Below are positions 4,357 through 58,336 of a DNA stretch of 64,000 nucleotides, one piece after another. The DNA comes from an uncultured bacterium (GTDB taxonomy: Bacteria > Bacillota_I > Bacilli_A > RFN20 > CAG-826). How positions within the stretch are numbered: the stretch's first letter is position 1; each line of letters opens with the position of its first letter. The stretch lies in the NCBI GenBank assembly GCA_949297805.1, contig CASFTG010000001.1:824999-888998 (forward strand), in the 5' to 3' direction. Both the position numbers and the translations under genes were made by a program. The notes under the pieces were generated by a model. It had not been told where the DNA came from, did no database searches, and was given only the letters and a program-made list of their open reading frames with translations.

Positions 4357-4362
4357 ATTGTA
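4357..4362 (-). promoter_or_regulatory. -10 box for leaderless priA
   Basis: Minus-strand TACAAT with six bases (ACCCTC) before the priA ATG. Transcription would begin at or next to the start codon. No clear -35 hexamer is seen at 17 bases. Confidence 0.55.
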
Positions 4363-4364
4363 AA

Positions 4365-4931
4365 CTACTTAGCGGCGTTTTTGATGATAGAGGCGATCTC
4401 GGCGGCGGCTCTTTCGACTGAATCGTTTAAGACGACGTGGGCATAGAGATGGGACATGGTTAGTTCCGACCGGGCTTTCTCAAGCCTTTCGGCGATCGCT
4501 TCCTCACTTTCGGTCTTTCTCCCTCTGATCCGGTCCTCTAGTTCCTTAATCGAAGGGGGCATGAGGAAAATCGATAAGGCATCGGGGCATTGCTCTAAGA
4601 CCTTCATCGTCCCCGAAACCTCGATCTCGAGCAGGACGTTCTTGCCCTCTTCCCGCATCTTCTCGACTTTATCCTTCGGGGTCCCATAGCAATTGCCGAC
4701 GAATTCGGCGTGCTCTAAAAGGTTTCCTTCCTCAAGGTTCTTCTCAAATTCCTCGCGGGAGACGAAATAATACTCTCTCCCATTGACCTCGCCGGGCCGG
4801 ATGGGGCGGGTGGTCATGGAGACCGAATAAAAAAGGTTCAGACTCGGGTCCTTCATCAGTTCCTTCCGAACCGTCCCTTTCCCGACCCCGGAGGGACCGG
4901 AGAGAATGATTAGCAACCCTTTACGTACCAT
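4365..4931 (-). CDS. gmk: Guanylate kinase
   Basis: A 188-residue cytoplasmic kinase that phosphorylates GMP to GDP using ATP. The P-loop GPSGVGKGTV is at residues 11-20, followed by the GMP-binding TRPIRPGEVNGREYYF segment and the lid region. The length is normal for bacterial Gmk. It sits immediately upstream of priA on the same strand; Gmk-(RpoZ)-PriA order is common in Firmicutes. The sequence before the ATG is AT-rich (TATTAATATT) and lacks a strong Shine-Dalgarno. Confidence 0.97.
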   Translation of the reverse strand: MVRKGLLIILSGPSGVGKGTVRKELMKDPSLNLFYSVSMTTRPIRPGEVNGREYYFVSREEFEKNLEEGNLLEHAEFVGNCYGTPKDKVEKMREEGKNVLLEIEVSGTMKVLEQCPDALSIFLMPPSIKELEDRIRGRKTESEEAIAERLEKARSELTMSHLYAHVVLNDSVERAAAEIASIIKNAAK

Positions 4932-4995
4932 AATATAAGGGGAATATTAATACGGCTTAAAAGCGATAATCAAGGTTTTATCCCTAAAAATGGGT

Positions 4996-5018
4996 AAAAA
5001 GGGCAGGTTGCCCTGCCC
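4996..5018 (-). terminator. Rho-independent terminator of the OB-fold lipoprotein gene
   Basis: On the minus strand GGGCAGG, a GCAA tetraloop, CCTGCCC and then TTTTT. A perfect 7-bp stem 22 bases after the stop codon of the 5041-7173 gene. Confidence 0.9.
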
Positions 5019-5040
5019 TAGATTCGATTAGTTAGAAGAA

Positions 5041-7173
5041 TTACTTCGAAGGGAAGTTGTTGCGGTTGATGACGGTGGTCCCGTCAGCGGTCGTTAAGGA
5101 GAAGAGGCAGCCTTTGAGCCCGCTGTTATTCCAGTTGCAGGGGGCAAAGACGATGTCGACCGTCTGATCGAGATAATCCTCGAGCCAACTATATCCTCCG
5201 CCTCCAGAATAGAGTTGGGTACTGGACTCTCCTTGATTAATATAGAAGTTCGAATAATAAGCGGTTACCACTCCGGTTATGGTGACATCCTCAAGCACAT
5301 AGGCTTTGGCCGTTTCGGCTAAAGCGTCGCTGGAAGCGAGGATTTCGGCTAAGGTTTTGCCGGTGATGAAGGAGGAGGAAGGATAAGTGCCGTCGCCATA
5401 TTCCGAAACGGTAATTTCGGCATCATAAAGCTTAATTTGGGTATTCGTGCCGTTTTTGCCGTTGAAGCCACGGGTCGCTTTGACGATGACGGTATCGCCG
5501 ATGTCAAAGGTGCCGTCGAAAACATCGTGGCCACCGAGGACCTCCGTCGCGATAACCCCGGTTTCGTCGATCAAATAGAACCCGTTCTTATTGACTAAGC
5601 CCGGGCCGACCACGCCTTTGACGGTGAGTTCATCGCCATCTTTGGCCTCGATGGCCTGCTTGACGGTGATGGTCTCAACCGCCGCCGCTTCCCGAGCATC
5701 GACGGTTACGGTCGCCGAGTAATCAGTTTGCCCAGCGAGGGAGCCGGTGATGGTGACGGTAACCGATTTGTTCTTGCTCGGATCGACATGGAAGACGGTT
5801 TTGCCCTCCTCGTCGGCAAACCAAACGGCCGAAGTGTCATCGGAAGCATAGGCGAGGGTCGCATTGTTGATGCCTAAGATCTCAGAACTGACCGAAGTCA
5901 CCAATTCTTTGGCCGGATCGTCCCCATAGGTCCCGGTGAATTGGGGAATTCCATAATACTCAACGGCGAATTTCGGGGCGTCGGCCAAGTCGAAGGCGAA
6001 CGGCTCATCGCTCACCTTGACCGGCAGCAAGCGCCAGACTCCGCCAGTCGAGCTCATCTTGGCGTTCAGGGCAACAAAGTAGAGATTGACGATCTTCCCA
6101 TCATATTCGTCAAGCCAAGCGAAGTCTTTGCCGTTGGCTTGGGTGTAGGTGTAGGAGCCAGTATTCTGATCAAGATCGAGAAGGTAATAATTGGTATAGC
6201 CGGTGCCTTCCCGTTTATCGATGTAGGTCGGCGCTTTGTAAAGAATCGAGGTGATATCATCGCTTAAATCCGAGGTGACAACATCCCGGACGGTGGTTTC
6301 GACCGCAACGGAATCATAATCGAAGCCGCTTCCCGCCTTATGATCGACCAAAACGCAATCGGTGATCTGATGGCATCCAAGATAGCCGAATTTGTCGGCG
6401 CTGGTTTGCTCATCCTCGAGGATCCAGTGGTCTTTCTTCCCGACCAAAGTGACTTCCTCTCCCTCTTCGACTTGGGCCGAGAGGCGGGAATCATAGATAT
6501 AGATCGAAGCCGTCTTATCGGCCAACATAAAGCCGATTTCCGACAGGTTGATGTTATAGGTGAAGCGGAGAACCGTCCCTTTGACCTTGACATATTCCCC
6601 GTCGGCGACTTTCCGCGCCTCGGCGAGGCTGGTCAATTGGTAATCGTCGGGGTTGATTTCCTCCTCGCTTGATTGGGAGACGAAATCGAGAAGATAGCCC
6701 GGATCGAATTCATAGGTGCCCTTATAGTTCTTGACCTGGCCCTTGAACAGAACCAAATCGCCTTCTTCAGGGGCTTCAGGCAATTTGTCGAAGTAAGTGT
6801 CGTCTTCCCCGTGCACCCCATAGCATTCGAAGGTCCCGGTATCGTCGCTGATGACCATTTGGCCATAGGTCGGATTGGTGATCTCTTTGACCGTGGCCGC
6901 AACGTAATAGGTCTCGGCCGATTTTTCGCCATCGGCGACGGTCGCCCCGACGGCGTTAAGCTCAGCGCAGGTCGAAAGCTCGTATTTTTTCCATTCGGCG
7001 GGGATGCCGTCGTCTTCCTCGCTGCTGGTTGGGGACGAGGAAGTTGGGGTTGAGGTTTCCGATGGGGTCTCGGATTCAGACGGGCTAGCCGACTGACTTG
7101 AGGTGGTGGTAGGACCGCAGCCGGCTAGTAGCAAGGCCGCCGCGAACCCGTAGAAAAGGCTCTTGGTTTTCAT
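5041..7173 (-). CDS. Large surface lipoprotein with repeated OB-fold-like modules
   Basis: A 710-residue lipoprotein. The signal peptide ends in the lipobox LLAGC (Cys19), followed by a Ser/Thr/Pro linker to about residue 55. The rest looks modular. Stretches around 60-165, 170-275, 495-590 and 600-705 each contain a pattern like VKGTV...FYLIDETG...V..GD.V.VKA, resembling the OB-fold domains found in extracellular nucleases and surface proteins of gut bacteria. A bacterial Ig-like segment lies near 405-490. No nuclease catalytic motif is seen, so the role is unknown, perhaps ligand or nucleic-acid binding at the cell surface. A GGAGGG site five bases before the ATG supports the start. The gene is monocistronic between its own promoter and terminator. 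Confidence 0.8.
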   Translation of the reverse strand: MKTKSLFYGFAAALLLAGCGPTTTSSQSASPSESETPSETSTPTSSSPTSSEEDDGIPAEWKKYELSTCAELNAVGATVADGEKSAETYYVAATVKEITNPTYGQMVISDDTGTFECYGVHGEDDTYFDKLPEAPEEGDLVLFKGQVKNYKGTYEFDPGYLLDFVSQSSEEEINPDDYQLTSLAEARKVADGEYVKVKGTVLRFTYNINLSEIGFMLADKTASIYIYDSRLSAQVEEGEEVTLVGKKDHWILEDEQTSADKFGYLGCHQITDCVLVDHKAGSGFDYDSVAVETTVRDVVTSDLSDDITSILYKAPTYIDKREGTGYTNYYLLDLDQNTGSYTYTQANGKDFAWLDEYDGKIVNLYFVALNAKMSSTGGVWRLLPVKVSDEPFAFDLADAPKFAVEYYGIPQFTGTYGDDPAKELVTSVSSEILGINNATLAYASDDTSAVWFADEEGKTVFHVDPSKNKSVTVTITGSLAGQTDYSATVTVDAREAAAVETITVKQAIEAKDGDELTVKGVVGPGLVNKNGFYLIDETGVIATEVLGGHDVFDGTFDIGDTVIVKATRGFNGKNGTNTQIKLYDAEITVSEYGDGTYPSSSFITGKTLAEILASSDALAETAKAYVLEDVTITGVVTAYYSNFYINQGESSTQLYSGGGGYSWLEDYLDQTVDIVFAPCNWNNSGLKGCLFSLTTADGTTVINRNNFPSK

Positions 7174-7187
7174 AAACCCTCCATAAC

Positions 7188-7205
7188 GGCACCCCTCTTG
7201 GTGCC
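7188..7205 (-). other. Small hairpin in the lipoprotein 5' leader
   Basis: Minus-strand GGCACC, six-base loop, GGTGCC between the predicted promoter and the Shine-Dalgarno of the lipoprotein gene. It could stabilise the mRNA or modulate initiation; no riboswitch class is recognised. Confidence 0.45.
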
Positions 7206-7209
7206 ATTT

Positions 7210-7239
7210 ATCTTAACCCCCCCCTAACATTCTTTTCAA
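7210..7239 (-). promoter_or_regulatory. Promoter of the OB-fold lipoprotein gene
   Basis: Minus-strand -35 TTGAAA (7239-7234), an 18-base spacer containing a run of eight G, and -10 TAAGAT (7215-7210). The G-run in the spacer could vary in length by slippage. Confidence 0.55.
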
Positions 7240-7295
7240 CCCTCAATGCACGAAAAAACGCTTGGCCGAAAAGAGCGCAAAATCCGGATATCATG

Positions 7296-8144: not shown

Positions 8145-8145
8145 A

Positions 8146-8766
8146 TTAACGGTATTTCCACCACGGATAGGGGCTTTTCTTCTTCACCTTGGGTTTGGCG
8201 GTTTTAACGATCGGCAATAAGCAGGCGAAGATCTTGCCGCAGGTCAAAGCATCGTCTAAGGCCCGATGGGCGTTCTCGTTGACTAAGCCGAAATGGGCGG
8301 CGACGTCATTTTGCTTATTCGATTCCAAGCTCAAATAAGAACGGGAGATGGCCATCGTGTCATAGGAACGGAGGTCGCAGTCATAGCCATGGCGTTTGAA
8401 CATGACGAGCAAGAAGCCTAAATCGAACTTGGCGTTATGGGCGACTAGAGGGATGTTTCCCATCATGGCCTCGCCTAAGAAGTCGGCGAACTGGGCGGCC
8501 GCTTGCTCATCGTTTGGCGCATCCTCAACCATGGCGTCGGTGATGCCGTTAACCGAAGAGGCGGCCGGGGAGATGAGCATGCCGGGGTTGACTAAGGTGC
8601 CAAAGGTCTTGACCGGTACCCCATTCTCGAAATAGACCGCCCCGATCTCGATGATCCGATCGTTGAAGTTCGAAAAACCAGTGGTCTCGAAATCAAAGGC
8701 GATATAACGGGAAAGGACTATGTCGGCTTTCTCGGGGGTGATGGTCAATAAGGTGGTGGTGTTCAT
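8146..8766 (-). CDS. DnaQ-like 3'-5' exonuclease (DEDDh)
   Basis: A 206-residue DEDD-family exonuclease. Motif I FDFETTG, motif II HNAKFDLGFL and motif III HRALDDALTC carry the four acidic residues and the catalytic histidine. It resembles the stand-alone Pol III epsilon-type exonucleases of Firmicutes that act in DNA or RNA end processing. A longer reading frame reaches 8811, but the ATG at 8766 is preferred because a TACAAT -10 box lies nine bases upstream and the extra 15 residues are unlike the family. The C-terminus is short and basic (KKKSPYPWWKYR). Confidence 0.88.
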   Translation of the reverse strand: MNTTTLLTITPEKADIVLSRYIAFDFETTGFSNFNDRIIEIGAVYFENGVPVKTFGTLVNPGMLISPAASSVNGITDAMVEDAPNDEQAAAQFADFLGEAMMGNIPLVAHNAKFDLGFLLVMFKRHGYDCDLRSYDTMAISRSYLSLESNKQNDVAAHFGLVNENAHRALDDALTCGKIFACLLPIVKTAKPKVKKKSPYPWWKYR

Positions 8767-8775
8767 AGCCCGTTT

Positions 8776-8781
8776 ATTGTA
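8776..8781 (-). promoter_or_regulatory. -10 box for the leaderless exonuclease gene
   Basis: Minus-strand TACAAT nine bases before the ATG at 8766, with no Shine-Dalgarno between them. It lies about 50 bp from the divergent rqcH promoter. Confidence 0.55.
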
Positions 8782-8827
8782 ACGGCGAGGGCCGGCCCTT
8801 TCCATATCCACGCTTAACGGATTAGGT

Positions 8828-8833
8828 TATAAT
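8828..8833 (+). promoter_or_regulatory. -10 box for leaderless rqcH
   Basis: A perfect TATAAT followed by CGCCCCGAT and then ATG. The same TATAATCGCCCCGAT context recurs at 13202 before another gene. Expected transcription start is within about 0-4 bases of the ATG. Confidence 0.65.
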
Positions 8834-8842
8834 CGCCCCGAT

Positions 8843-10219
8843 ATGATCCGTCTTCGCCATTTCCCTAGTTATGTCGCCGCCTTGAGGTCGGCCTTGCTCA
8901 ATAAGAAACTCCGCCTTTTCAAAGAATTCGCTCCCGGTCATCTATCGGCTTCGGTAAGCAAAGGAAGGAGCCTCGTCATCAACCTCAAAGGGGAGATGGG
9001 GTGCTACCTTTCCCCCACTTCCTTTAATCCAGCTTTATCCTCCCCTTTCCTAGAGGCCTTAAAGAAAAGGCTATCCGATGCTTTGGTCATCGATGTCTCG
9101 CCCTTTAATGATGACCGGATCATCGTTTTCCAGTTAGAAGGGGTCAATGAGGTATTCCACCCCACCGTCTATGACCTTTATATCGAATTGATGCCGGGTC
9201 GAGGCAACATGGTCCTTTGCGAGAATTCCCATCAAATCATCGCCAGTTATCACGGCGAGGCCGGGCGATTGTTATTAAAAGGGGCTCGTTATCTCCCGCC
9301 GGAACGAAAACTGACTGAGGACATCGATCCCTCGCCTTTCGATTTGGAAGCCTATAACCAAGAAATGATCGCAAAGGAAACGATCATCTTCCGGCAAAAA
9401 GCCGCAGCTTTGGCTTCGCCTTTATTAAGCCTATGCAAACGGAAGATCAAAGCCAGTGAAAAGAAAGTCAGCCAATTGACCCAGGATAAGCTAGAAGCCG
9501 AAAGCCATCTTTCTGACGGAGAGAAAGGCAACTTCATCTTCATGAACCTCGATTCGATCGATACTGAATCCGGCTATATGGATTTCTATGGGGAGAAGGT
9601 GGCCTTAAACAAAGCTAAGTCCTTAACCGAGAACGCCGAAGCCTTCTTCAAAAGAGCCAAGAAAGCCCGATCCACCATCGAGAACGCCGATAAATACATC
9701 GAATTAGCCAAACAAGAAGGGGAAGAAGCCGCCTCCTTATTGCCGATCATCCAAAACGCCAGCGAAGAAGCGATAAAAGAACTATTGGAACGTTATTCGA
9801 TCTTAGACCGGAAAGGCAAAGGGAAGAAAGAAAAGCTAAGCCCGGCCTTATATCCTTATAAAGCCGAGATTGAAGGAACGGTGTATCTATTCGGACACAA
9901 CGCGGCGATGAATGACTTCCTTTCTTTCGTTTACGATACCCGGAAGTCCCATTATTGGCTCCATGTCAAGGATACCCATGGGGCCCACTTATTGATCCAA
10001 GCCGATAACCCAAGCGATAAGCAAATCCAATATGGCTGCGAATTAACTTTGCTTGCCTCTAACCTCGAGGAAGGGGAAGTCATCTATTGCCCCAGAGGGA
10101 ATATAAGAAAAGGCAAGGAAAAGGGACAGGTCGTCTTAGGCGAATACCAATCGGCCATGATTCGGAAGATATCCCCGGAAGCCCGGAAGGCCTATGAATT
10201 ACGGGAGAAGGTCAAATGA
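8843..10219 (+). CDS. rqcH: RqcH, ribosome quality control Ala-tailing factor (NFACT family)
   Basis: A 458-residue Rqc2/NEMF homologue that binds stalled 50S subunits carrying peptidyl-tRNA and recruits tRNA-Ala for C-terminal alanine tailing. The NFACT-N domain occupies roughly 1-190 with the functionally important DR pair at residues 91-92. A coiled-coil middle (about 200-320) and the NFACT-R domain with DYxxHW-type sequence (SHYWLHVKDTHGAHLLI) follow. It is about 100 residues shorter than B. subtilis RqcH, mostly in the coiled coil. The start is set by TATAAT nine bases upstream. It overlaps the next gene by an ATGA. Confidence 0.93.
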   Translation: MIRLRHFPSYVAALRSALLNKKLRLFKEFAPGHLSASVSKGRSLVINLKGEMGCYLSPTSFNPALSSPFLEALKKRLSDALVIDVSPFNDDRIIVFQLEGVNEVFHPTVYDLYIELMPGRGNMVLCENSHQIIASYHGEAGRLLLKGARYLPPERKLTEDIDPSPFDLEAYNQEMIAKETIIFRQKAAALASPLLSLCKRKIKASEKKVSQLTQDKLEAESHLSDGEKGNFIFMNLDSIDTESGYMDFYGEKVALNKAKSLTENAEAFFKRAKKARSTIENADKYIELAKQEGEEAASLLPIIQNASEEAIKELLERYSILDRKGKGKKEKLSPALYPYKAEIEGTVYLFGHNAAMNDFLSFVYDTRKSHYWLHVKDTHGAHLLIQADNPSDKQIQYGCELTLLASNLEEGEVIYCPRGNIRKGKEKGQVVLGEYQSAMIRKISPEARKAYELREKVK

Positions 10220-12439: not shown

Positions 12440-12445
12440 GGAGCT

Positions 12446-12451
12446 ATCATA
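12446..12451 (-). promoter_or_regulatory. -10 box for the leaderless DUF4143 ATPase gene
   Basis: Minus-strand TGCTATGAT, an extended -10, ending six bases before the ATG at 12439. Confidence 0.55.
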
Positions 12452-12558
12452 GCACAGAAAACTTCCTGTTTAGGATTTTTCGTGCAGGTTTTCCCGAAAA
12501 TTCCAGAATTTCCGTGCATCCAATCCCGAAAAGTCCGGTTCTATATAGATTTTGATAC

Positions 12559-12587: not shown

Positions 12588-12605
12588 CAAAGATTTTATC
12601 GCCGA

Positions 12606-13145
12606 TTATTCCTTCGATGGGAACTTCTCTTGATAACGGAGCAGCCCTTTCCGAATCGCCTCTTCCGCTTCGGCGACCCCACCATAACCTTGGACGACGG
12701 TCTTCTTGCCGTGCTCTAACTCCTTATAGACAGTGAAGAAGTGCCGGATTTCCTCCTCGACATGGTCAGGCAAGGCATCAACCGAATGGAAGGCGTTGTA
12801 GAAGGGGTCTTTCTCGGGAATGGCGATGATCTTGACGTCCTCTTTCCCCGAATCGATCATGGTCAGCACCCCGATTGGATAGCATTTGACCATGGCTAAC
12901 GGGACGATCGGGCCCGAGGAAACGATTAAGACGTCGAGCGGATCCTCATCCCCACCCCAGGTCTTGGGGATGAACCCGTAGTTATGGGGATAATGGGTTG
13001 AGGTATAGAGGAAGCGGTCTAAGACCAAGGCCCCTGACTCGTGGTCGATCTCGTATTTGGCCGAGGAGCCGCTGGAGATCTCGACCACGGCATAGAAGGA
13101 AGAGGGGGTTTGGTAAGCGGAAGGGACCGAGTGGATTAAGTTCAT
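12606..13145 (-). CDS. ppa: Inorganic pyrophosphatase, family I
   Basis: A 179-residue soluble pyrophosphatase hydrolysing PPi to two phosphates. Recognisable elements are YEID near the N-terminus, the YPHNYGFIPKTWGGD segment, the DEDPLDVLI signature with metal-binding aspartates, and KDPFYN. The ATG at 13145 is chosen over upstream ATGs at 13151 and 13181 because TATACT ends seven bases before it and would leave the other two outside or at the very end of the transcript. In this genome PPi is also used by a PPi-dependent phosphofructokinase (24315-25505), so the two enzymes compete for PPi. Confidence 0.95.
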   Translation of the reverse strand: MNLIHSVPSAYQTPSSFYAVVEISSGSSAKYEIDHESGALVLDRFLYTSTHYPHNYGFIPKTWGGDEDPLDVLIVSSGPIVPLAMVKCYPIGVLTMIDSGKEDVKIIAIPEKDPFYNAFHSVDALPDHVEEEIRHFFTVYKELEHGKKTVVQGYGGVAEAEEAIRKGLLRYQEKFPSKE

Positions 13146-13152: not shown

Positions 13153-13158
13153 AGTATA
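13153..13158 (-). promoter_or_regulatory. -10 box for leaderless ppa
   Basis: Minus-strand TATACT seven bases before the ATG at 13145. This placement decides between the three possible start codons. Confidence 0.55.
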
Positions 13159-13201: not shown

Positions 13202-13207
13202 TATAAT
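13202..13207 (+). promoter_or_regulatory. -10 box for the leaderless thioredoxin-like lipoprotein gene
   Basis: TATAAT followed by CGCCCCG and the ATG at 13215; the nearly identical context occurs before rqcH. It is divergent from the ppa promoter, 44 bp away. Confidence 0.62.
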
Positions 13208-26038: not shown

Positions 26039-26067
26039 ATTATGGGGTCGGATTAAAAAGAAAGCAA
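26039..26067 (-). promoter_or_regulatory. Promoter of the leaderless isochorismatase-pfp operon
   Basis: -35 TTGCTT (26067-26062), 17-base spacer, -10 CATAAT (26044-26039), then six bases to the ATG. This is one of the leaderless promoters here with a reasonable -35. Confidence 0.62.
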
Positions 26068-38753: not shown

Positions 38754-38759
38754 ATGATA
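38754..38759 (-). promoter_or_regulatory. Possible -10 box for the DUF5677-like gene
   Basis: Minus-strand TATCAT seven bases before the ATG and immediately after addA. Weaker than the other leaderless examples because an AAGGAG overlaps it. Confidence 0.35.
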
Positions 38760-45689: not shown

Positions 45690-45698
45690 ATCGCCACT

Positions 45699-45704
45699 AT
45701 TATA
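45699..45704 (-). promoter_or_regulatory. -10 box for near-leaderless glpK
   Basis: Minus-strand TATAAT followed by AGTGGCGAT and the ATG. No clear -35 at 17 bases. Confidence 0.6.
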
Positions 45705-47175: not shown

Positions 47176-47212
47176 TTTAGCGAAAACGTTTTCGCCGAAA
47201 ACGTCTTCGTCA
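47176..47212. repeat. Operator-like 37-bp repeat, downstream copy (at the transcription start)
   Basis: Contains the perfect 16-bp palindrome GCGAAAACGTTTTCGC and an adjoining near-palindrome CGAAAACGTCTTCG. The copy covers the expected transcription start and leader of the DUF234 ATPase gene. Central CG with AT-rich arms is the LacI-family operator style. Confidence 0.7.
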
Positions 47213-47214
47213 GT

Positions 47215-47220
47215 ATTATA
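47215..47220 (-). promoter_or_regulatory. -10 box of the DUF234 ATPase gene
   Basis: Minus-strand TATAAT, with TTTTCA 16 bases upstream as a possible -35. It lies between the two 37-bp repeats. Confidence 0.6.
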
Positions 47221-47256
47221 CATCATTAAATATGAGTGAAAACAGGGAAAGTAAAT

Positions 47257-47293
47257 TTTAGCGAAAACGTTTTCGCCGAAAACGTCTTCGTCA
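47257..47293. repeat. Operator-like 37-bp repeat, upstream copy
   Basis: Identical over 37 bases to 47176-47212, same orientation, offset 81 bp (close to eight helical turns). Paired placement would allow repression by DNA looping around the promoter. Confidence 0.7.
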
Positions 47294-49795: not shown

Positions 49796-50395
49796 CTACG
49801 GTTTGACCAGGTCAAGAAACGGCTCACCCGGATTTAGGCGAAACCACTTGGCTTCAAGCCGCTCATTAAGATGAGAATCGCTGATAAGCTTAACCTTAAC
49901 CATCTCACCGAATTCCGGGTTGGCGATAACGAAATCCAGCCGGCTCGATAGCCTGGTTAAGGAATCGTAGGCGGCGTAATCGACCTCAAGATCATAAGCG
50001 TATAGTTGCCTAACCACCGAAATCTCGGCTTGCCCATAAGCCTGCTTTCCGGCTTCTAAGACCATCCGGCGGAGGTTGCCGACACCGAGCTTTGTCCCGC
50101 CGAAATAACGGGCGACGGCTAATAGGCCATAAGCATCTTCGGCCCGAAGGAACTCCAATAACGGGCGGCCCGAAGACCCACTCGGCTCCCCGTCCTCACT
50201 GAAGCCATCCTGCCCATCGAGCCGGAATCCATAGGGGATATGGTTGGCTTTATGGTGCAAGGAACGGATCGAGGCCAATTGGGCGTCGAGCTCTTCTTTA
50301 TTGGCGCAAGGTAAGGCAAAGGCCAAAAAGGAAGAGCCAAGCATCTCGCTTTGGCCCTCCCCTTTCTTGGTTATGACCTTATCGCCTTCTTTCAT
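49796..50395 (-). CDS. yigZ: YigZ/IMPACT family protein
   Basis: A 199-residue protein with the UPF0029/IMPACT signature GEPSGSSGRPLLEFL and ARYFGGTKLGVGNL, followed by the small C-terminal ferredoxin-like domain. Eukaryotic IMPACT modulates GCN2; the bacterial role is unknown, with links to translation. The ATG overlaps the stop of the giant surface-protein gene (ATGA), so it depends on translation through that gene and could be affected by its frame disruption. Confidence 0.93.
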   Translation of the reverse strand: MKEGDKVITKKGEGQSEMLGSSFLAFALPCANKEELDAQLASIRSLHHKANHIPYGFRLDGQDGFSEDGEPSGSSGRPLLEFLRAEDAYGLLAVARYFGGTKLGVGNLRRMVLEAGKQAYGQAEISVVRQLYAYDLEVDYAAYDSLTRLSSRLDFVIANPEFGEMVKVKLISDSHLNERLEAKWFRLNPGEPFLDLVKP

Positions 50396-53300
50396 AGAAG
50401 GATGATCGAGGCGTTGGTGGCCAAACCTAGAGCCACTTCCGAGAAGTTGACTTGGTTATCGCCCACTTTGAACTCTTTGTACTTGCTCAAATCGGACAAG
50501 TTCGAATTCCCAACGATGCCGGAGTATGGCAAGGAGAGATATAGGTAGCTAGAAAGCATACCAAGCTTCTCTTTACCAGTGACGAAGACGGTGTCGGTCA
50601 GGCCATAATTGAAGTAAGAATCAAGTTTCTCCATCGCCAGAAGACCCTCAACGCACTCATCGGTGGCATAAGTGGCAATCTTTTCATCAGTGAAGGCATA
50701 GGCCATGAGGTTGGCGTAGAACACTTCCTGGGCCGAGCCGTCATTGATGAGGGCCATCCATTCATCGTCGTAGAACGAACCGAGGTTCTTATAGGAATCA
50801 ACGGTGATTTCGGTATTTGTGTAGAGCCCGCCGGGATTGGCGCCAATCGTTCCGTAACTTAGGTTATGGTTGATGTAATCAGCCTTAACCAAAGCACCGT
50901 AAATGGCGTCCATTTCCCCGGCGAGGATGTTGTTAAACAGCACCGGATCCTCAAGGTTTTCGCAGTTTTCATCGACTTTGGTGAACGAAGAGAAGGCATC
51001 GACCGCGTCCAGCATATCAATCCGGGCTCCTTGGTTAAGAGCAACCAAGGCGGCATAAACGCCAGCATTAGCCGTATCGTCATCGCCTAGACTATCGACC
51101 AACGCTTCGACCGCGGTGACATAACCTTCGACAAAGGCCAAATCGATAATGTGGTCATCGACATAGAGCGAGTCAACTTTCAGATCAGGGTAATTAAGAG
51201 CCGATCCGAGTTTTTCGTTCAACGCGTTTATGGCGGCCTGCTCGGAGTTATCACCCTTCACCAGCCGATTGAAGATCGAAGCTTTGAAGGTGCTTTGCTG
51301 CCCAAAGCTAATGTCGAGGGTAAAGATGTGGTATAGAGCGTAATCCCGGGTGGTGACGGAGTTCTCGCTAGCCACCTTGACCGGATGATAAGCATCAAAG
51401 TCAGTACCGGACTTGAATTCAATCGGGTTCTCAAAGATCGAGGTCTGCTGCATGAAGGTCAAAAGGTCATAGGTGTGATGGCCTTGCTCGGTAAAGGCGG
51501 TCATGACGTCATAACCATCGGGGATATTAGCAAAGTCGAAGTAGTGGCCATCTTGTCCATCAACGCCCGGGGTGTAGATGCTATTGAGGAGGTTGATGAT
51601 GAGGTTGATGTCCTTTTTCTCGAGTTCAGACTGGGTATACCGATAGTTCGAGAGGTCATAGCTAACTTGGACGTTCAAAGGTTCGGAAGAAGTGAGGACC
51701 AGATTGCCGGTTAAGGAAGCGACATCGATGGAAGAACCTTCGCTAGGTTTGGCGAAGTCGGTGTAGTCGATCTCGCCGGCCTTAAGCGAATATTCCGTTG
51801 GAATCTTATCAAGGGTGATGGTCAAAGGATGGCCGCCGGTTTCAAGGTTGCCAGCCACCGCGCCGATATCATAGACGTATTCGTTCCCGACTTGAGTCGC
51901 TTCAACGGTAATCGGCTCCGCCGGCCGGGTGAACTGGGTGAGGCCAACGTTGCCAAAGACGTCCTGGAGGGCGTTAGGCAAGATGTCGCTGCCGAGCTGA
52001 AGTTTGTTGAGGGCATAGAAGATGTCCTCTAAGTCATCCGGCGGGAGGTTCATGATCTCGTCGCCCGAGAAGGTCAAGGAGCCGTCGTCAGCGAGGAAGC
52101 CAGAATCGAGGAAAACCTGGAGGAGGCCCGCCCCCCGTCCATCGTCGGTCAGGTTGTTGATTTCCTCGGTCCAACCCGGGGTCCGCTGGGCCTTGATCTT
52201 CTTATAGAGTTTCTCTTGGTAACCGGCTTCCCCATGGGCAAGATAGAGTTCCGGATCCCCTTCTAAGCTATAGTTCAAAGAAGCTAAGGAGGAAGAGTCA
52301 TACACCGTATAGGCTAATTGCTCAAAGACGGTCAAATCATCGTAAGTGAAAGTGCCTTCGTTCCAAACGGCAGAATTACCGCCATAGACCAAGAACCCAT
52401 CGTTATGGAAGACCCGGGAATTGTACATATCGGTGAGGATCTCTCGGAAGGTGATCGGATCGATGGAGGAGAGGTTGGTCAGGTTCCCGAGGGCTTCGCT
52501 GTTGCGGGACAGATTCGAGAGAATCGAGGCCAATTGGTAAATCTCGGTCTCATCGAAACGGCGGGAATAATCCGGTTCCGAATGATATTGGTCATTCTCG
52601 TCATAATAATAGGAGAAGTAGACGTTAGCCTTAGTGAAGTCGATGCCCTCGATTTGAAAATCGGGCTGATTCAAGGTCGAATCGATGATGTTCGGGACGC
52701 AGTCATAGAACAAAGGCGAATCGTTAAGCGCGGTCAATAAGTCGACGAAGAGATCGGGCCGGATGGAAGAGAAATCGAAGACCCCATCATTGTTGAGCAG
52801 CGGCTTGACCTCGTCCGACTGGAAGAGGGTCAACATCGTCTTTAGCGACCCCTCATCTCCATCAATGGCCAGTTCTTGTTTGGCAAGATCGGAATCATTC
52901 CCGTCAAATTTGGTCGGGAAGACGGACTTAACCAAGTAAATAGCTTTGCCGTTAGCCAAGTCGGCGGAATCATATTGGGCGTAAAGCGACTTATTGGCGA
53001 GGTCTTTAGGCGAACCGGTCCCATCGTCTTTAACGTAATAGAAATATTGCTCTAAAGCGTCGAGGGAGACGATTTGCTTAATGAGCCCTTGGAAGGCGTT
53101 GAGGCCCGTCGTTTCGTTGAGCTTATCGCTATTGAAGAGGCCCGAACGCATCATCTGGTCGAGGGCGGTCGTCAAGGCGGAGGCATCAATCGAGCCTAAA
53201 TCGGTCAAATCGGTCGAAGATAAAGAGGATAAAGACCCCATCATGTTGACAAGGTAATCAATCTGCTCCTCCCCATAGGGCGCATAGTCCTTAGTCCCGT

Positions 53301-54099
53301 TATCTTCATAGGCAGTGAAGAAGGGGTTGACATCATTAAGGAATTCGCCCATCTCCCCTTCAATGAGTTCCTCGCCCGATTCGGGGAAGAAGACGTCATT
53401 GAGCAGCTGCGGCAACGCCCGGTAGAAAAGAGCGGATCCATCGAGGGCATTGAGCATAGTCGAGAGCTCGCGCTTCTTATCATCGGCGTTGGTGGCGAAA
53501 TAATCGGAGGGCGAGGACAAAGCATCGAAATCCAGTTCCCCGTTCTCATCGACGAAGGAGGAGGATTGGATGGTATCGATAAGATAGCAAAGGTCATCGA
53601 TCTCGGAATCCCAATCGCTGATCGACTCAACGATCTTGGCGATGGTCATATCGGTATGGTCAGGATCGAAGGCGACATGGGCTTTGTCTTCGGCGTTCTC
53701 ATCAATCCCGTAGATGCCGGATTCGACCAAAACCGTCTCAATCAATTGCTTAAAGACCGGGGTTTGTTCGGCGGTCGGGGCTTCGTTAAGCAGATGGCTT
53801 GCGCTGGCCCCATCGAGCAACGGACGGAGGAGGAAGTCGGTGGAAAGCGAAGATAAGGAAATCCGGCTGGCATCGAGTTGCCCATCCTCATTCATTAACC
53901 CATAGGAAGGATCGAGCAAAACCGAGAAGACGGAGAAGAGATTAGCGACCTCATCGACGTTATCTTGCCGTTGCTTCTCAGTTAAGGTGGAAAGATGGCC
54001 ATTGACGGGATCGGCATGGAGGAAATAAGAATAGTTGATGGCGGAGAAATCAATCGGCGAATCTTTCGCCCCCTCCATCCCGGCGAAGGCGTTCTTCAA
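50392..54099 (-). CDS. C-terminal part of a giant surface protein, separated by a frame disruption
   Basis: An open frame of up to 1235 residues starting at a TTG, with no signal peptide, no membrane helix at the start and no Shine-Dalgarno. It consists of acidic, Asn/Asp/Leu-rich sequence with repeated LLTALNDSPLFYDCVPNII-like and MLNALDGSALFYRALPQLL-like units, also seen in the 54199-57480 frame. It is in the same phase as that frame. I read it as the continuation of one protein of roughly 2,350 residues, interrupted between 54,105 and 54,298. No known domain is recognised. A TAA two codons before the TTG argues against a separate gene start. Confidence 0.7.
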   Translation of the reverse strand: MKNAFAGMEGAKDSPIDFSAINYSYFLHADPVNGHLSTLTEKQRQDNVDEVANLFSVFSVLLDPSYGLMNEDGQLDASRISLSSLSTDFLLRPLLDGASASHLLNEAPTAEQTPVFKQLIETVLVESGIYGIDENAEDKAHVAFDPDHTDMTIAKIVESISDWDSEIDDLCYLIDTIQSSSFVDENGELDFDALSSPSDYFATNADDKKRELSTMLNALDGSALFYRALPQLLNDVFFPESGEELIEGEMGEFLNDVNPFFTAYEDNGTKDYAPYGEEQIDYLVNMMGSLSSLSSTDLTDLGSIDASALTTALDQMMRSGLFNSDKLNETTGLNAFQGLIKQIVSLDALEQYFYYVKDDGTGSPKDLANKSLYAQYDSADLANGKAIYLVKSVFPTKFDGNDSDLAKQELAIDGDEGSLKTMLTLFQSDEVKPLLNNDGVFDFSSIRPDLFVDLLTALNDSPLFYDCVPNIIDSTLNQPDFQIEGIDFTKANVYFSYYYDENDQYHSEPDYSRRFDETEIYQLASILSNLSRNSEALGNLTNLSSIDPITFREILTDMYNSRVFHNDGFLVYGGNSAVWNEGTFTYDDLTVFEQLAYTVYDSSSLASLNYSLEGDPELYLAHGEAGYQEKLYKKIKAQRTPGWTEEINNLTDDGRGAGLLQVFLDSGFLADDGSLTFSGDEIMNLPPDDLEDIFYALNKLQLGSDILPNALQDVFGNVGLTQFTRPAEPITVEATQVGNEYVYDIGAVAGNLETGGHPLTITLDKIPTEYSLKAGEIDYTDFAKPSEGSSIDVASLTGNLVLTSSEPLNVQVSYDLSNYRYTQSELEKKDINLIINLLNSIYTPGVDGQDGHYFDFANIPDGYDVMTAFTEQGHHTYDLLTFMQQTSIFENPIEFKSGTDFDAYHPVKVASENSVTTRDYALYHIFTLDISFGQQSTFKASIFNRLVKGDNSEQAAINALNEKLGSALNYPDLKVDSLYVDDHIIDLAFVEGYVTAVEALVDSLGDDDTANAGVYAALVALNQGARIDMLDAVDAFSSFTKVDENCENLEDPVLFNNILAGEMDAIYGALVKADYINHNLSYGTIGANPGGLYTNTEITVDSYKNLGSFYDDEWMALINDGSAQEVFYANLMAYAFTDEKIATYATDECVEGLLAMEKLDSYFNYGLTDTVFVTGKEKLGMLSSYLYLSLPYSGIVGNSNLSDLSKYKEFKVGDNQVNFSEVALGLATNASIILL

Positions 54100-54277
54100 G
54101 CCGTTTTAAGGCCTGTTCCATCGAGGAAAGGTTGTCGAAGTCGAGGTTGGAGAGTTCCTCAACCCCGCCGAGTTGGTTAAGCGAATTCAAGACGTTGGTC
54201 AGCCGGTCGATCTCGCCCTGCTCCCCATTCCAGTCCTCTTCGGTCGAAAGCTGTTCGACCATATCGAGATAGAGCAA
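54050..54277 (-). other. Out-of-frame coding tract linking the two halves of the giant gene
   Basis: Between the 26-bp duplication and an AAAA run at about 54,105, the coding-like reading (LTNVLNSLNQLGG, LDFDNLSSMEQALK) lies in a different phase from the frames on both sides. Removing one 26-bp copy and one A restores a single continuous frame, with ALNGLKNAFAGMEG at the junction. Confidence 0.65.
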
Positions 54278-57200
54278 GGTCGTGGCCGCTTGTTTCTCAG
54301 CAAGGTCGTGGCCGCTTGTTTCTCCTCTAAAGTGGTTAAGGAGGCTACGTCCCCTTCGAAATCCGGATCGAGGAAGTACTTTAAAGTCTCCCCGTCAGTC
54401 GAGAGGAGCAATTTGTTGTAAAGGTATTCGGGGAAGACGTATTCGCTGACCCCGGACTCGGTATAGGTGAAGATGCCTGAACCCGATAAGGCTTTAAGCA
54501 GATCGCCAAGATCCGGCCCTAAGGCGAAGAAGTCGAGGTTCGATAAATCTAACCCTTTGGAGGCCAAGTCGATGACTTTCTGGAACGCCGCCCCTTCGGC
54601 TGCCCAGTCGGTAACGTTTTTAAAACTGATCGGAAGGTCGAGCCCATCCTCGCCTCCAACCCCAAGGATCGGGACAACGAGGTATCCATCTAGGGCCCCG
54701 CCGGCGAGTTTGGAAAGGATGACCGAGTCCCCGATGGCGGCGAACACGTCATCGATCTTCAATCCCGAAAGCTGGCTGAAGGCGTTCGCGGTGTCCCCAT
54801 TGCTTAAGGAATCAAGCTTATCGAGGAGGCCGCTGCGCAAGACCGAGCAAAGGGCATTGACCATTTGATAAGTCTCGCCTTTCGGCTTCGATTGATCGAT
54901 GTCCCCTTCAATCCAAGAGGAGGTGAGATTAGGAATGCCGTCGAGGTCTTCAGTGGTCAATTCAGTGAAGGTCCCGTTGCTATCGATTTGCGAGATCAAT
55001 TTGTTGATAAGCCCGCAGAAGTTGGCGTTCTTCACTTCTTTTCCGTTTTCATCGAGGGTAATGGGATTTAATACTTTGGAATTCAGGAAGGTGTCGAAGA
55101 TGTAGCAAAGTTCCTCCTGAGCCGAGAGCAAGAACGACCCCATCGCCGCCGTCCCCATCTTGGAGATAGAAGAGAAAGAAGAGACCAATAAGGGGCAATA
55201 CTTGGCCATTCTCAGGATATTGGCCGCCTCATGGCCTAAGTTCGGGGCGTGGAAGTCAAGTTTGGCGATGCCATATTGGCTTAGGTCGAAGTCCTCCATC
55301 GAGGATTCAAGGACGCCTGGTAAGGCTGAGGAAAGGATGATTGAGCGGTCAATGTCCTCGCAGGTATTGATTAAAGCATCCAATAAATCCGGTTCGATCG
55401 AATAGAGGTTCCCTTCGGGATCGTAATTAACACCCGGCTGAGTGTCGGGATTAAGGAGGAATTCTTTGCCGGCTTCGTTCGAAGCTAATTCAGCGGCGAT
55501 ATCCATGATTGCCCCAAATTCCTTTTTGAAGTTGACCCGGGTGACCCCGATGTTATCTTCATCGACCAGTTGCGCGTTGGCGGATTCCAAATCGATCTTG
55601 ATATTCCCTTGGTTATTGACCATCGGCTCAAGGACCGGGAGCAAGTCGTCTAAAGCGTTGCCGATCAAGACCGAATCGAAGAGGTTCTTCTTTCCGGTTG
55701 AGATGCCGGTATTGGGGTCGACGTTAGTCGGGTTGCCATCGGCATCGCGAGGGCCGACCAAAACCGAGATGACTTCCTCCGGATGGTCGATGACCATGGT
55801 GAGCAAGGTCCCGAGGATTCCCCCGCCGAGCAGTTTGTCCTCGTCGGCCGCTTCCGAAGAGGAGGAATCGTTTTGATTAAGCCGAGATAACGACTGGACG
55901 TCGGCGGTCGTTCCGAGCCCATCGAACATCTCCTTCATCGCCACTCGGTCGATATCGACGAGGCTGTAGAAGGAATCGTAGATGATGCCGAGTTCTTGGA
56001 ACCAGGAGATATTGGCGATCTGGTGGTAATCCAGCGGGGCGTCCTTATCGGGTTGGACGAACATCCGAAGGGAGAAGGAATCCTCGCTAGTTTCTTGGTT
56101 CTTAGCCATAGTATAGACGGCCCCGGCGATCAGGTGGTTGATGAGATCGGTGTCAGCCTTGTCGAGGGCGGCATGCATGGATTTATAGGCGTCTTCATCC
56201 TCGAACATCGCATAAAGCTGGGTGAGGTTAAAGATCGGGGTCTGGGAGACCTCATCGGCGATGACCTCGAAGAAGCCGGCGTTAAGCAAATCAACGTAGA
56301 AGGCGCTTAAGTTGTTGAGCTCATTGGTCCAATCGTAATTCTGATTGGTCAAATAGGCGACGGCGTCCTCTCCTAAGATGGTTTTGGCTTGATCGAGATT
56401 AAGGGCAATCGTCACCGCGACCGGCAAAGCGATCTTGACTAGGGAGACGCTGGTGAGCTTGCTGATGAGGTTCGGGATGATCATCGAGGCGAGGATCGAA
56501 TGCCAGGCGATCCCATCCTCCCCGATCATGGCCATGACCCCGGAATTGAGAATCGAGGAGCCGACGTCAGCGATAGACGCCAACTCGGTGATGAGGTCGA
56601 CCTTCATCCCGGCGGCATCGGTTTTGGTTAGGAAGGAGATGAGCTTCGAATCGAGGGTCTCGGTCCCGTCGTTCCGGGTCCAGTTGAAGAAGACCTTGGC
56701 GAAAGTCGAGTCGTCATAGGCCTCGAGGACATCGTAAACCATTCCGACCGTCTCATCGGTTTTGGACGAGGATTCATCGATCTCCAGATGGTTATTGACC
56801 GTGTTGACCAAGGCGGTGAACGGAGTCAGAAGCATGACCATGATCAGACCACCGCAGACGACGTGTTCTAAGCCTGAGACCCAGCGAAGTTTTCTTTTCC
56901 GCCGTTTCTTCTTAACGACCGCTTCCCCATCGGGTCCATTGAGATATTCGGTGACTTGGACTTTGCGGTTAAAGAGGAACTTGAAGCAAATATGCCATAA
57001 AAGCCAAGCCAATAACGACCCGACGATCATAATGAGCAAGCCTTCGACGAAGATGAGGAGGAGCTTGACGGTCGAGGCCGCGAGGGCGGTCGCGTAGACG
57101 ACGATGTCTTCCGCCGAAGCCGACACCCCATAATGGAGCAAGAGTTTAGTAAAGAAATCGGTCAAGGTCTCGGATAGGGTGGTGACATGAAGGCTCGCCG

Positions 57201-57480
57201 AAAAGTCGCCGATATTGACGACGACTTCGGGAATGCCGAAAGAGGAAAGATCGAGTTTGGCCAGCATATCGCCTAGGGGCGAGACCGTCAGCATCCCGAT
57301 GACGCAGAGCCCGCCGACGAAGATCAGATGGTAAGTCCCGTATCGCCAACCATGGAGCAAACCCCAGAGGAAGAGGAAGACCAGGACCCCGAGGATTCCA
57401 AAGAAGGCGACGTTTAAACCGATATCGAGGTAACGGAGGATGTCCTCCGAATTCACAGACAAAAATGTGGCCAAGTTCAT
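54199..57480 (-). CDS. N-terminal part of a giant membrane-anchored surface protein
   Basis: A 1093-residue frame. Residues 15-70 and 140-175 hold membrane helices, then a basic KKKRRKRKLR loop (about 190-200), another helix (about 207-232) and a long, probably extracellular, acidic region with repeated helical units. The last about 28 residues (from RNKRPRPCS) are frameshifted junk after a 26-bp tandem duplication. Known families are not recognised; the large membrane/ectodomain layout suggests a cell-surface or division-site protein. The ATG has CATAAT nine bases upstream and TTGAGG 17 bases further. Confidence 0.72.
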   Translation of the reverse strand: MNLATFLSVNSEDILRYLDIGLNVAFFGILGVLVFLFLWGLLHGWRYGTYHLIFVGGLCVIGMLTVSPLGDMLAKLDLSSFGIPEVVVNIGDFSASLHVTTLSETLTDFFTKLLLHYGVSASAEDIVVYATALAASTVKLLLIFVEGLLIMIVGSLLAWLLWHICFKFLFNRKVQVTEYLNGPDGEAVVKKKRRKRKLRWVSGLEHVVCGGLIMVMLLTPFTALVNTVNNHLEIDESSSKTDETVGMVYDVLEAYDDSTFAKVFFNWTRNDGTETLDSKLISFLTKTDAAGMKVDLITELASIADVGSSILNSGVMAMIGEDGIAWHSILASMIIPNLISKLTSVSLVKIALPVAVTIALNLDQAKTILGEDAVAYLTNQNYDWTNELNNLSAFYVDLLNAGFFEVIADEVSQTPIFNLTQLYAMFEDEDAYKSMHAALDKADTDLINHLIAGAVYTMAKNQETSEDSFSLRMFVQPDKDAPLDYHQIANISWFQELGIIYDSFYSLVDIDRVAMKEMFDGLGTTADVQSLSRLNQNDSSSSEAADEDKLLGGGILGTLLTMVIDHPEEVISVLVGPRDADGNPTNVDPNTGISTGKKNLFDSVLIGNALDDLLPVLEPMVNNQGNIKIDLESANAQLVDEDNIGVTRVNFKKEFGAIMDIAAELASNEAGKEFLLNPDTQPGVNYDPEGNLYSIEPDLLDALINTCEDIDRSIILSSALPGVLESSMEDFDLSQYGIAKLDFHAPNLGHEAANILRMAKYCPLLVSSFSSISKMGTAAMGSFLLSAQEELCYIFDTFLNSKVLNPITLDENGKEVKNANFCGLINKLISQIDSNGTFTELTTEDLDGIPNLTSSWIEGDIDQSKPKGETYQMVNALCSVLRSGLLDKLDSLSNGDTANAFSQLSGLKIDDVFAAIGDSVILSKLAGGALDGYLVVPILGVGGEDGLDLPISFKNVTDWAAEGAAFQKVIDLASKGLDLSNLDFFALGPDLGDLLKALSGSGIFTYTESGVSEYVFPEYLYNKLLLSTDGETLKYFLDPDFEGDVASLTTLEEKQAATTLLRNKRPRPCSISIWSNSFRPKRTGMGSRARSTG
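54273..54324. repeat. 26-bp perfect tandem duplication inside the giant gene
   Basis: Two adjacent identical copies, 54273-54298 and 54299-54324, each starting AGCAAGGTCGTGG. The unit is not a multiple of three, so it shifts the reading frame. Confidence 0.95.
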
Positions 57481-57489
57481 ATCGGGTTA

Positions 57490-57518
57490 ATTATGGTGGG
57501 CAAGGAAGGAAACCTCAA
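57490..57518 (-). promoter_or_regulatory. Promoter of the giant surface-protein gene
   Basis: -35 TTGAGG (57518-57513), 17-base spacer, -10 CATAAT (57495-57490), then nine bases to the ATG; no Shine-Dalgarno. Confidence 0.6.
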
Positions 57519-57544
57519 TACCCAAGTGCGCGCCTATACGCGTA

Positions 57545-58129
57545 TTAGCAATACGAAATTTCAACCAAATCCAGCGGATCGAAGGCGATGGCTAAGCCGG
57601 TTAAAGTTAGGAAACCGGCGCCCAAAATGCCAAAAAGGAGATAAACCAACTTCCGAGAATTGATGGCTCCAAGCAGCCGTAAACCGGAAAGGAGCAAAAT
57701 CAACAATCCGGCGGCGATAGCCCCATAGACATAGCCGACCGTTGGCCCAATGGCTAAGCTCCGGTAGCCATAAATCGAATAGCACATCGGATAGCAATAA
57801 CCATCCTCATCGCAATACCCGGGCCCTGAGGCATTATCGACGACGACCTTGAAAAGTGGGAGGAAGAACATCAGCAGGATTAAAATGGTCACGAGCATAA
57901 TGACCGATAAGAGGACTCGTTCTTTGACGCTCGGCGGTTCTTTGCTGCTAAGAATCCCCGGCCCGAGTTTCTCCACCAGCAGCTCCTCCGTCTCCTGGCC
58001 TGGATGCCGGGTCCCGTTTTCGTATTGGGCGATGGCGCTGCGTGAGACATAGACGGCGCTGGCGAGGCTTTCCTGGGTATAGCCTTGCTTCTGCCTTTCT
58101 TGAATCAATTTTTCTTTGTCGATTGCCAT
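57545..58129 (-). CDS. XRE-family membrane-anchored regulator
   Basis: A 194-residue protein. Residues 1-60 are an XRE helix-turn-helix (LIQERQKQGYTQESLASAVYVSRSAIAQYENG), followed by four hydrophobic segments from about residue 80 onward. Such membrane-linked Cro/CI-type proteins are frequent in Firmicutes; the signal sensed is unknown. A frame reaches 58168, but the ATG at 58129 has TATAAT exactly six bases upstream, giving a leaderless mRNA. It is divergent from the CPBP gene, about 200 bp away. Confidence 0.85.
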   Translation of the reverse strand: MAIDKEKLIQERQKQGYTQESLASAVYVSRSAIAQYENGTRHPGQETEELLVEKLGPGILSSKEPPSVKERVLLSVIMLVTILILLMFFLPLFKVVVDNASGPGYCDEDGYCYPMCYSIYGYRSLAIGPTVGYVYGAIAAGLLILLLSGLRLLGAINSRKLVYLLFGILGAGFLTLTGLAIAFDPLDLVEISYC

Positions 58130-58135
58130 GCCGGT

Positions 58136-58141
58136 ATTATA
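58136..58141 (-). promoter_or_regulatory. -10 box for the leaderless XRE gene
   Basis: Minus-strand TATAAT, then ACCGGC, then ATG at 58129. This rules out the upstream frame extension, which would lie inside the promoter. Confidence 0.65.
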
Positions 58142-58323
58142 GTCCGCCAAGCAAATTCCCTTCGTCACAAAACGTCACATCGGCTAATTCGAGTGGCAAA
58201 ACAAAAGGCAAAATCGGCGTTTGAAAGGACTTTTGATTCGAAAAGCCCGCAAAAACCGAATATGTCGAATAGATTTTGAATCGCAGTTCAAAGGCGGCTT
58301 TAGGCAAGGAGCAAAACTAATGA

Positions 58324-58329
58324 TATATT
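58324..58329 (+). promoter_or_regulatory. -10 box for the CPBP protease gene (GTG start)
   Basis: TATATT followed by AACGCGC and the GTG at 58337. A leaderless mRNA starting at GTG is predicted. Confidence 0.5.
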
Positions 58330-58336
58330 AACGCGC

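Follow-up and report, generated by a model that had tools for sequence, protein, structure and literature searches.

A 64,000-nucleotide stretch of DNA (the window; positions 824,999 to 888,998 of contig CASFTG010000001.1, assembly GCA_949297805.1) from an uncultured bacterium (GTDB lineage Bacteria; Bacillota_I; Bacilli_A; RFN20; CAG-826) carries −10-like boxes close ahead of the start codons of some of its genes, and the same arrangement recurs across the genome. Many unit-first genes, judged from gene spacing alone to open a transcription unit, have such a box 6–10 bases before the start codon, which makes it highly probable that RNA polymerase begins transcription at the A of the AUG or at a G three bases upstream, and that the ribosome loads onto the bare 5′ end. 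In the arrangement we propose, the housekeeping polymerase would place +1 about 7 bases after the box. Where the start codon lies at that distance, its A would be +1 and the leaderless mRNA would be taken up as a bare 5′-AUG; where a G-N-T triplet lies at that distance, the G would be +1, giving a three-base leader that fills only the E site and sets a U next to the AUG. The ribosome would load on either bare 5′ end without Shine-Dalgarno pairing. We infer from the sequence that the boxes are used, that transcripts start at a purine and that initiation is of the 70S, 5′-AUG type.

Boxes ahead of unit-first genes

The assembly that holds the window comprises 1,653,160 bases in 11 contigs, of which 40 stretches of 20 kilobases taken at regular steps, together with the window, make up our sample of 864 kilobases (52% of the genome). 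The sample is not visibly biased, since it holds 36 exact pattern matches (TATAAT 6–9 bases before ATG) against 33.5 expected from the whole genome. Genes were called by a custom script in which the choice of start depends on coding score plus a bonus for ATG and takes no account of the upstream sequence. A gene is termed first if its neighbor is divergent or the gap exceeds 60 bases, mid if the same-strand gap is 26–60 bases and inner if it is −30 to 25 bases; first and mid genes together are the unit-first genes (n = 353). As a box we counted TATAAT 6–10 bases ahead of the start, allowing one mismatch outside A2 and T6, and the background count of boxes is the mean over windows 30–90 bases away. 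A Shine-Dalgarno word is GGAG, GAGG or AGGA at −18 to −5. For comparison we used the close relative G156 (median protein identity 92.5%; stretch L021 is taken as belonging to the same metagenome-assembled genome) and the relatives G048, G138 and G118 (46–51%).

A box precedes 69/353 unit-first genes against a background of 9.3 (about 3% per gene), with 60/301 among first genes (background 8.2), 9/52 among mid genes (0.8) and 9/271 among inner genes (2.1). The genome-wide count of −10-to-start distances that the original prediction had called for thus has a peak, at 6–10 bases, and the pattern that it read as widespread leaderless transcription does extend over the genome; however, it reaches only some one unit-first gene in every five or six and is patchy within the family. 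In the whole genome, exact TATAAT occurs 64 times at 6–9 bases before ATG, 40 times at 21–24 bases and 12 times in a reversed control. In a scan of all 4096 hexamers at spacers 6–10 before the 174 first genes of a half-sample, TATAAT ranks 9, the highest of the words that are not of Shine-Dalgarno type, with Shine-Dalgarno words also at the top. In G138, whose stretches are TATAAT-enriched by choice, the TATAAT family comes first and AGGAGG ranks 112. Furthermore, T-rich positions lie 21–23 bases before the box (71 genes pooled from three genomes), a hint of a −35 element.

AT-richness before start codons, where upstream regions are in general expected to be AT-richer, could be held to produce such a peak. 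However, dinucleotide-preserving shuffles give 6.1 (standard deviation 2.5) box genes against the 36 observed in the 174 first genes, and G105, a relative within the class of similar GC (guanine plus cytosine) content (49%), has no peak, with boxes at 2/98 unit-first genes (background 6.1) and 2/87 first genes. TATAAT ranks 4020 in the hexamer scan of G105. The shuffles and G105 led us to reject the AT-richness artefact; with the sharp edges and bimodality of the peak, they leave it a vanishingly small chance of being the explanation.

Shine-Dalgarno words are the commoner signal overall, in 150/353 unit-first and 166/271 inner genes. They are nearly missing at box genes, being found in 3/69 of them compared with 147/284 other unit-first genes (3/60 and 125/241 for first genes only). 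This mutual exclusion suggests that the box stands in for the ribosome site and is not added to it. The marks of a leaderless class are found here: a signal that peaks just before the start, is concentrated in first and not inner genes, and goes without a Shine-Dalgarno word. In the 150 unit-first genes that have the word, 62 of the 106 box positions within 1–70 bases fall at spacers 16–35 (20, 14, 16 and 12 per five positions) and 3 at 6–10, as leadered promoters would.

The boxes might instead be secondary promoters of genes carried mainly on leadered mRNA from promoters further upstream and translated in some other way. Indeed, both signals are missing from 137/353 unit-first genes; some of these reflect start errors, and a further initiation route or weaker boxes may hide among them. 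In addition, priA lies 14 nucleotides behind another gene. The mutual exclusion of the two signals and the concentration of boxes in first genes argue against this view, as do the divergent gene pairs of the sample (gap up to 400 bases): 9/59 are boxed on both sides, and eight of these are less than 80 bases apart, which leaves little room for other promoters. Secondary promoters thus seem quite improbable, and we retain transcription from the boxes themselves.

Another alternative is that the starts are misplaced, the real ones lying downstream behind Shine-Dalgarno sites and the boxes being ordinary promoters with normal leaders. The starts are predicted, and the caller does misplace some (ppa, the XRE-type gene and the gene at 47034). 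However, an in-frame downstream start with a Shine-Dalgarno word is no commoner in box genes (8/69) than in Shine-Dalgarno genes (28/147), and on this comparison we rejected start misplacement as a general cause. In addition, 19 of the 22 alignable pairs with G156 match from the first residue of both called proteins, and in stretches L021 and L022 rqcH and priA show synonymous changes in their first codons, as read from the alignments. Nor would a random mixture give peaks at 6 and 9 bases with only 3 boxes at 3–5 and 11–13 together. We therefore regard misplaced starts as very improbable. An upstream alternative start is lacking in 39/69 box genes. First box genes start with ATG in 56/60 cases and GTG in 4/60, which is weak evidence of an AUG preference since the caller favors ATG.

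Two features of the translation apparatus were considered. A missing anti-Shine-Dalgarno sequence is not supported: the string GGATCACCTCCTT, a candidate for this part of 16S rRNA, occurs in 4/21 genomes (genus members G152, G156 and G157, and also G165), the present assembly not being among them. For ribosomal protein S1, 13/13 genomes, including relatives of the order, fall below the rpsA cut-off, and only 2/14 control genomes pass it, so nothing follows; the best rpsA match of the present genome is one stretch covering 265–349 of 516 positions.

Two spacings and the G-N-T triplet

Over the 353 unit-first genes the spacer between box and start codon is 6, 7, 8, 9 or 10 bases long in 17, 11, 9, 23 and 9 cases, with none at 4, 5 or 11 and two at 12. 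The looser TAnnnT, counted in genes without a Shine-Dalgarno word, gives 26, 12, 9, 26 and 9 over the same spacers. The spacing range is thus 6–10 bases and not 6–9 as originally given, with two modes, at 6 and 9. In the spacer-9 class, G-N-T stands directly before the ATG in 16/23 genes, compared with 27/330 other unit-first genes (p = 2 × 10⁻¹¹). The relatives G048 (4/5 versus 8/170) and G156 (6/7 versus 12/122) have the triplet as well, the G156 count adding little because this is a close relative whose stretches were picked near pattern matches.

A transcription start at one distance, about 7 bases past the box, explains the two modes together, as leaderless AUG and as a three-base GNU leader. 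In the present genome and G048, 26 of the 28 spacer-9 genes have a purine as the seventh base past the box; in the spacer-6 genes of the two genomes the start codon opens at that base, and the letter before it is a pyrimidine in 24/26. By this distance, spacers of 6–7 bases would fit no leader, and the class with 8–10 bases is better read as having a leader of 2–3 bases. Leaderless transcription as first proposed is well supported by box position, Shine-Dalgarno avoidance and conservation, except that the 9-base class more likely has a three-base GNU leader.

The second mode, with spacer 9 and G-N-T, seems to be the new part. A37 of the initiator tRNA offers a pairing partner for U(−1), and Bacillota promoters that start with G respond to GTP in the stringent response. 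It is conceivable, if doubtful, that TATAAT-N6-G-N-T-ATG is a second signal in this genome and its nearest relatives, specifying a 5′-GNU-AUG mRNA that starts with G, with the triplet in the E site and U(−1)-A37 pairing in place of Shine-Dalgarno pairing, and that genes with G at +1 could respond to GTP levels. If true, leaderless genes would split into ATP-started and GTP-started sets. Alternatively, the triplet may reflect only preferred start letters (G at +1), with T(−1) a by-product and no translational meaning. A purine at +1 is general, and T is also fairly frequent at −1 in other first genes (49/125 of those with a Shine-Dalgarno word). Relatives of genus g9 almost lack the class, with 1/3 spacer-9 genes having it, and LepA changes there from GNU to spacer 6. 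Exact TATAAT-N6-GNT-ATG exceeds its reversed control in the present genome (11/0) and G048 (5/0), and also in several genomes of other families (among them G040, 21/4; G043, 10/1; G035, 8/0; G128, 8/1), so the pattern count alone is no genus marker. Nevertheless, T(−1) is found in 20 of the 24 spacer-9 first genes of the present genome and G048, inside the predicted mRNA and next to the AUG, and it is conserved together with G where the middle base varies (rqcH GAT, GTT and GGT; the DnaQ-like gene GCT and GTT). A mere preference for start letters is plausible, and we treat it as a serious contender.

As for function, translation-related genes, by our own reading of Pfam names, make up 6/23 of the GNU class and 0/27 of the scanned among the 28 spacer 6–7 genes (p = 0.006), with L020:19230 unscanned and only two of the 18 other box genes scanned. 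They are LepA, TruB, a PP-loop ATPase (doubtful), an RsmB/F-like protein, YbeY and RqcH. Among genes with any Pfam match, the counts become 6/21 versus 0/18 (p = 0.022) and, without rqcH, 5/20 versus 0/18 (p = 0.048). The spacing class turns over between genomes, LepA having spacer 10 with GTT here, spacer 9 with GTT in G048 and spacer 6 in G138, so the GNU class is not conserved by function, and the idea of the GTP-started genes as a growth-linked regulon is weakened. At L011:9791–9820, the divergent PP-loop ATPase and TruB genes are 28 bases apart, and their two −10 boxes overlap in the palindrome ATTATATAAT, which may serve both of these near-leaderless genes as a common promoter working in either direction.

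Box sites in the window and across relatives

All 11 main sites at which hexamers had been placed 6–9 bases before a start codon are present in the window. By the automated rule, 9/27 of its unit-first genes have a box, against a background of 3.0% per gene (P about 5 × 10⁻⁸). The box is kept at nearly all of these sites in close relatives, and the spacing stays within 6–9 bases. Identity of 97–100% with G156 gives the glpK, XRE, CPBP and DUF5677 sites little weight.

On the minus strand, priA has TACAAT at 4357..4362, 6 bases from the ATG at 4350; box and spacing are kept in L021 and L022, and the distant L023 has TAGAAT 6 bases before a GTG. Lying 14 nucleotides behind the guanylate kinase gene, priA is not unit-first by position. 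The DnaQ-like gene (minus strand, 8767..8781) has TACAAT at 8776–8781 and a 9-base spacer ending in GCT before the ATG at 8766, and L022 has TAGAAT with a 9-base spacer ending in GTT. The divergent rqcH (plus strand, 8828..8842) has TATAAT at 8828–8833, with a spacer of 9 bases ending in GAT before the ATG at 8843; the spacer is 9 bases ending in GTT in L022 and 8 bases ending in GGT in L021. In L021 the box persists at rqcH, while the divergent DnaQ-like gene has a different leader with AAAGGA and no box; one kind of leader, box or Shine-Dalgarno, may have been exchanged for the other here.

The DUF4143 ATPase gene (minus strand) has TATGAT at 12446..12451, 6 bases from the ATG at 12439, the spacing being kept in L021 and L022 having no match there. 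In front of ppa (minus strand), TATACT at 13153..13158 is 7 bases from the second ATG, at 13145. This is the start originally read; the caller chose 13151, and that first ATG would sit 1 base from the box. L021 is identical, and in L022, where one base is lost, the second ATG is still 6 bases from the box. A thioredoxin-like lipoprotein gene on the plus strand, a name from the original reading for a protein with no Pfam match, has TATAAT at 13202..13207, 7 bases from the ATG at 13215; the spacing is 7 in both L021 and L022, and L022 keeps the box despite changed spacer letters. The isochorismatase gene (minus strand; CATAAT at 26039..26044, 6 bases from the ATG at 26032) keeps its box in G156. 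The DUF5677 gene (minus strand; TATCAT at 38754..38759, 7 bases from the ATG at 38746) is indeed the weaker case it was taken for, given the gap of 17 nucleotides to the upstream gene and AAGGAG just upstream; its box is kept in G156 and missing in G118.

Further along the minus strand, glpK (45690..45704) has TATAAT at 45699–45704 and a 9-base spacer ending in GAT before the ATG at 45689; G156 is identical and G118 has no box. The gene before glpK has a TATAAT upstream of it that is flanked by two copies of a 32-base element in which the palindromic AAAACGTTTTC is abundant (47261–47292 and 47180–47211, minus strand). This pair, spanning 47180–47292 and mostly kept in G156, looks like a repressor operator pair, and the true start of the gene is probably the ATG at 47160, behind GGAGG. 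At 50395–57480 lie two neighboring genes of great length, 1235 and 1093 amino acids, with no Pfam match at 1e-5. The 1093-residue gene (minus strand, 57481..57495) has CATAAT at 57490–57495 with a spacer of 9 bases ending in GAT before the ATG at 57480; G156 lost 2 bases, leaving 7. The XRE-type gene (minus strand) has TATAAT at 58136..58141, 6 bases from the ATG at 58129, which was the later start originally read, the caller having chosen 58150; the site is kept in G156, where 98% identity gives little power. The CPBP/CAAX protease gene (plus strand) has TATATT at 58324..58329, 7 bases from a GTG at 58337, kept in G156 (97% identical). A gene for 201 amino acids (minus strand; TAAAAT at 62315..62320, 6 bases from the ATG at 62308) was missing from the original list and has the same spacing in G156. 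A 62-residue open reading frame at 63533, near the window edge, also has a box but, having no known neighbor, was left uncounted.

Among orthologues in G048, G138 and G118, after three unclassifiable rows that had no upstream sequence were dropped, a box is found in 18/35 for box genes and 10/82 for other unit-first genes (p = 2 × 10⁻⁵), although the pairs are not independent, because genes recur across the three genomes. Without the biased G138, the counts are 13/27 and 4/64.

Across 149 genomes of the class, TATAAT is more frequent near the ATG (6–9 bases) than far from it (21–24 bases) in 29, with a median ratio of 0.87. The present genome is fifth (64/40), behind G138 (51/11), G048 (41/16), G118 (33/14) and G128 of another family (182/106), and only G138 and G128 pass the Bonferroni limit. 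The near count exceeds the far count in 13/15 genomes drawn from the family and in 16/134 from the rest of the class. A larger draw of the family gives 50/76, with genera g1, g9, g119 and g135 high and g116 and g118 reversed. At gene level, boxes are found before 24/175 unit-first genes in G048 (background 4.2), 15/74 in G118 (1.0), 20/81 in G138 (1.0) and 27/129 in G156 (4.6); G142, chosen for its pattern ratio, has 8/95 (3.5), or 7/78 among first genes (3.0). The trait is thus unevenly spread within the family, being strong in some genera and absent or reversed in others.

Several observations weigh against leaderless or near-leaderless starts at the boxes. The excess of 64 near over 40 far matches in this genome alone has p = 0.024, which is lost on correction over the 149 genomes. 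Spacers of 7 and 8 bases fit no one fixed start distance exactly and would need a one-base shift or a two-base leader. The simple coding-score caller makes errors, as where it chose 47034 and not the in-frame ATG at 47160 preceded by a Shine-Dalgarno word, and upstream promoters giving leadered mRNAs are also possible for box genes. The G138 and G156 stretches were picked after matches had been seen and hold about twice the number expected (17 versus 7.8 and 19 versus 9.7). Their gene-level shares are too high for this reason; the peak itself stands, with its size uncertain, because boxes other than exact TATAAT still exceed background (6 against 0.6 in G138, 16 against 3.8 in G156). G197, of the same genus, has no gene-level peak in its sampled stretches L122–L141 (6/132, background 5.2) and no GNU class. 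This disagrees with its high whole-genome pattern ratio (70/40), and the stretches, with 7 pattern matches against 15.4 expected, may misrepresent the genome. Finally, a Deinococcus deserti plasmid intended as a positive control gave 1/24 by the box rule and is uninformative. As an aside, G197 is labelled as the same genus, yet has 39% GC and a median protein identity of 44% to the present genome.

Comparison with known leaderless systems

Leaderless genes have been reported in Mycoplasma, some Lactobacillales and Deinococcus, so what we describe is of a known kind, in a new lineage and with a new variant. Zheng 2011 gives leaderless genes for 207/953 bacterial genomes, including 56/209 Firmicutes (mean 4.2%), those of Firmicutes being concentrated in Lactobacillales and Mycoplasma (18.3% on average over five Mycoplasma genomes, by prediction) (PMC3160421). 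In Mycoplasma pneumoniae, 16% of transcripts are leaderless-like and 8.1% of genes have Shine-Dalgarno motifs (PMC10568206). In view of these reports, the original statement that leaderless mRNAs are not a recognised hallmark of Bacilli was too strong. The present system resembles those of Mycoplasma and Lactobacillales in belonging to Bacillota, in its −10-like signal just before the start codon and in a similar share of genes. In contrast to them, the sampled stretches of the strong-signal genomes here have 47–61% GC, ordinary Shine-Dalgarno words occur elsewhere in these genomes, and a second mode exists, with spacer 9 and G-N-T, that the passages cited on those systems leave unmentioned. 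Shine-Dalgarno words are rare genome-wide in Mycoplasma-type initiation, as in M. pneumoniae, which is not the case here, where well over half of inner genes have one.

In Deinococcus-Thermus, a −10-like hexamer lies about 6–7 bases before open reading frames; in Deinococcus it precedes nearly one third of genes and has the form TANNNT, mostly TACACT (PMC12340547). The likeness lies in a −10-like hexamer close upstream of the open reading frame alongside a Shine-Dalgarno class; the differences are that here about a fifth of unit-first genes are involved, with near-consensus TATAAT and a bimodal 6/9 spacing. The main peak does not fall at 6–7 bases here, as the spacer counts above show. In Mesoplasma florum, most start sites are 6 or 7 bases past the −10 box, and nine genes are expressed strictly from start-codon sites (PMC7745072). 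This box-to-start distance equals the one we infer here, and the few start sites exactly on start codons are a further likeness, although they are only a few cases there. As judged from titles and the beginnings of abstracts, literature searches on leaderless genes in uncultured Bacilli, on differential RNA sequencing in Bacilli and on short U-containing leaders gave nothing on point apart from the Deinococcus paper.

Together, these observations point to heavy use of leaderless starts by Bacilli whose GC content is moderate to high, which still employ Shine-Dalgarno sites and which have relatives in the same family without the trait. The family is a natural series in which to study how genes pass from one mode of initiation to the other, and predictors guided by Shine-Dalgarno sites may often misplace start codons in genomes of this kind. 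The GNU class, for its part, offers a concrete, testable signal for how ribosomes might accept a leader of one codon.

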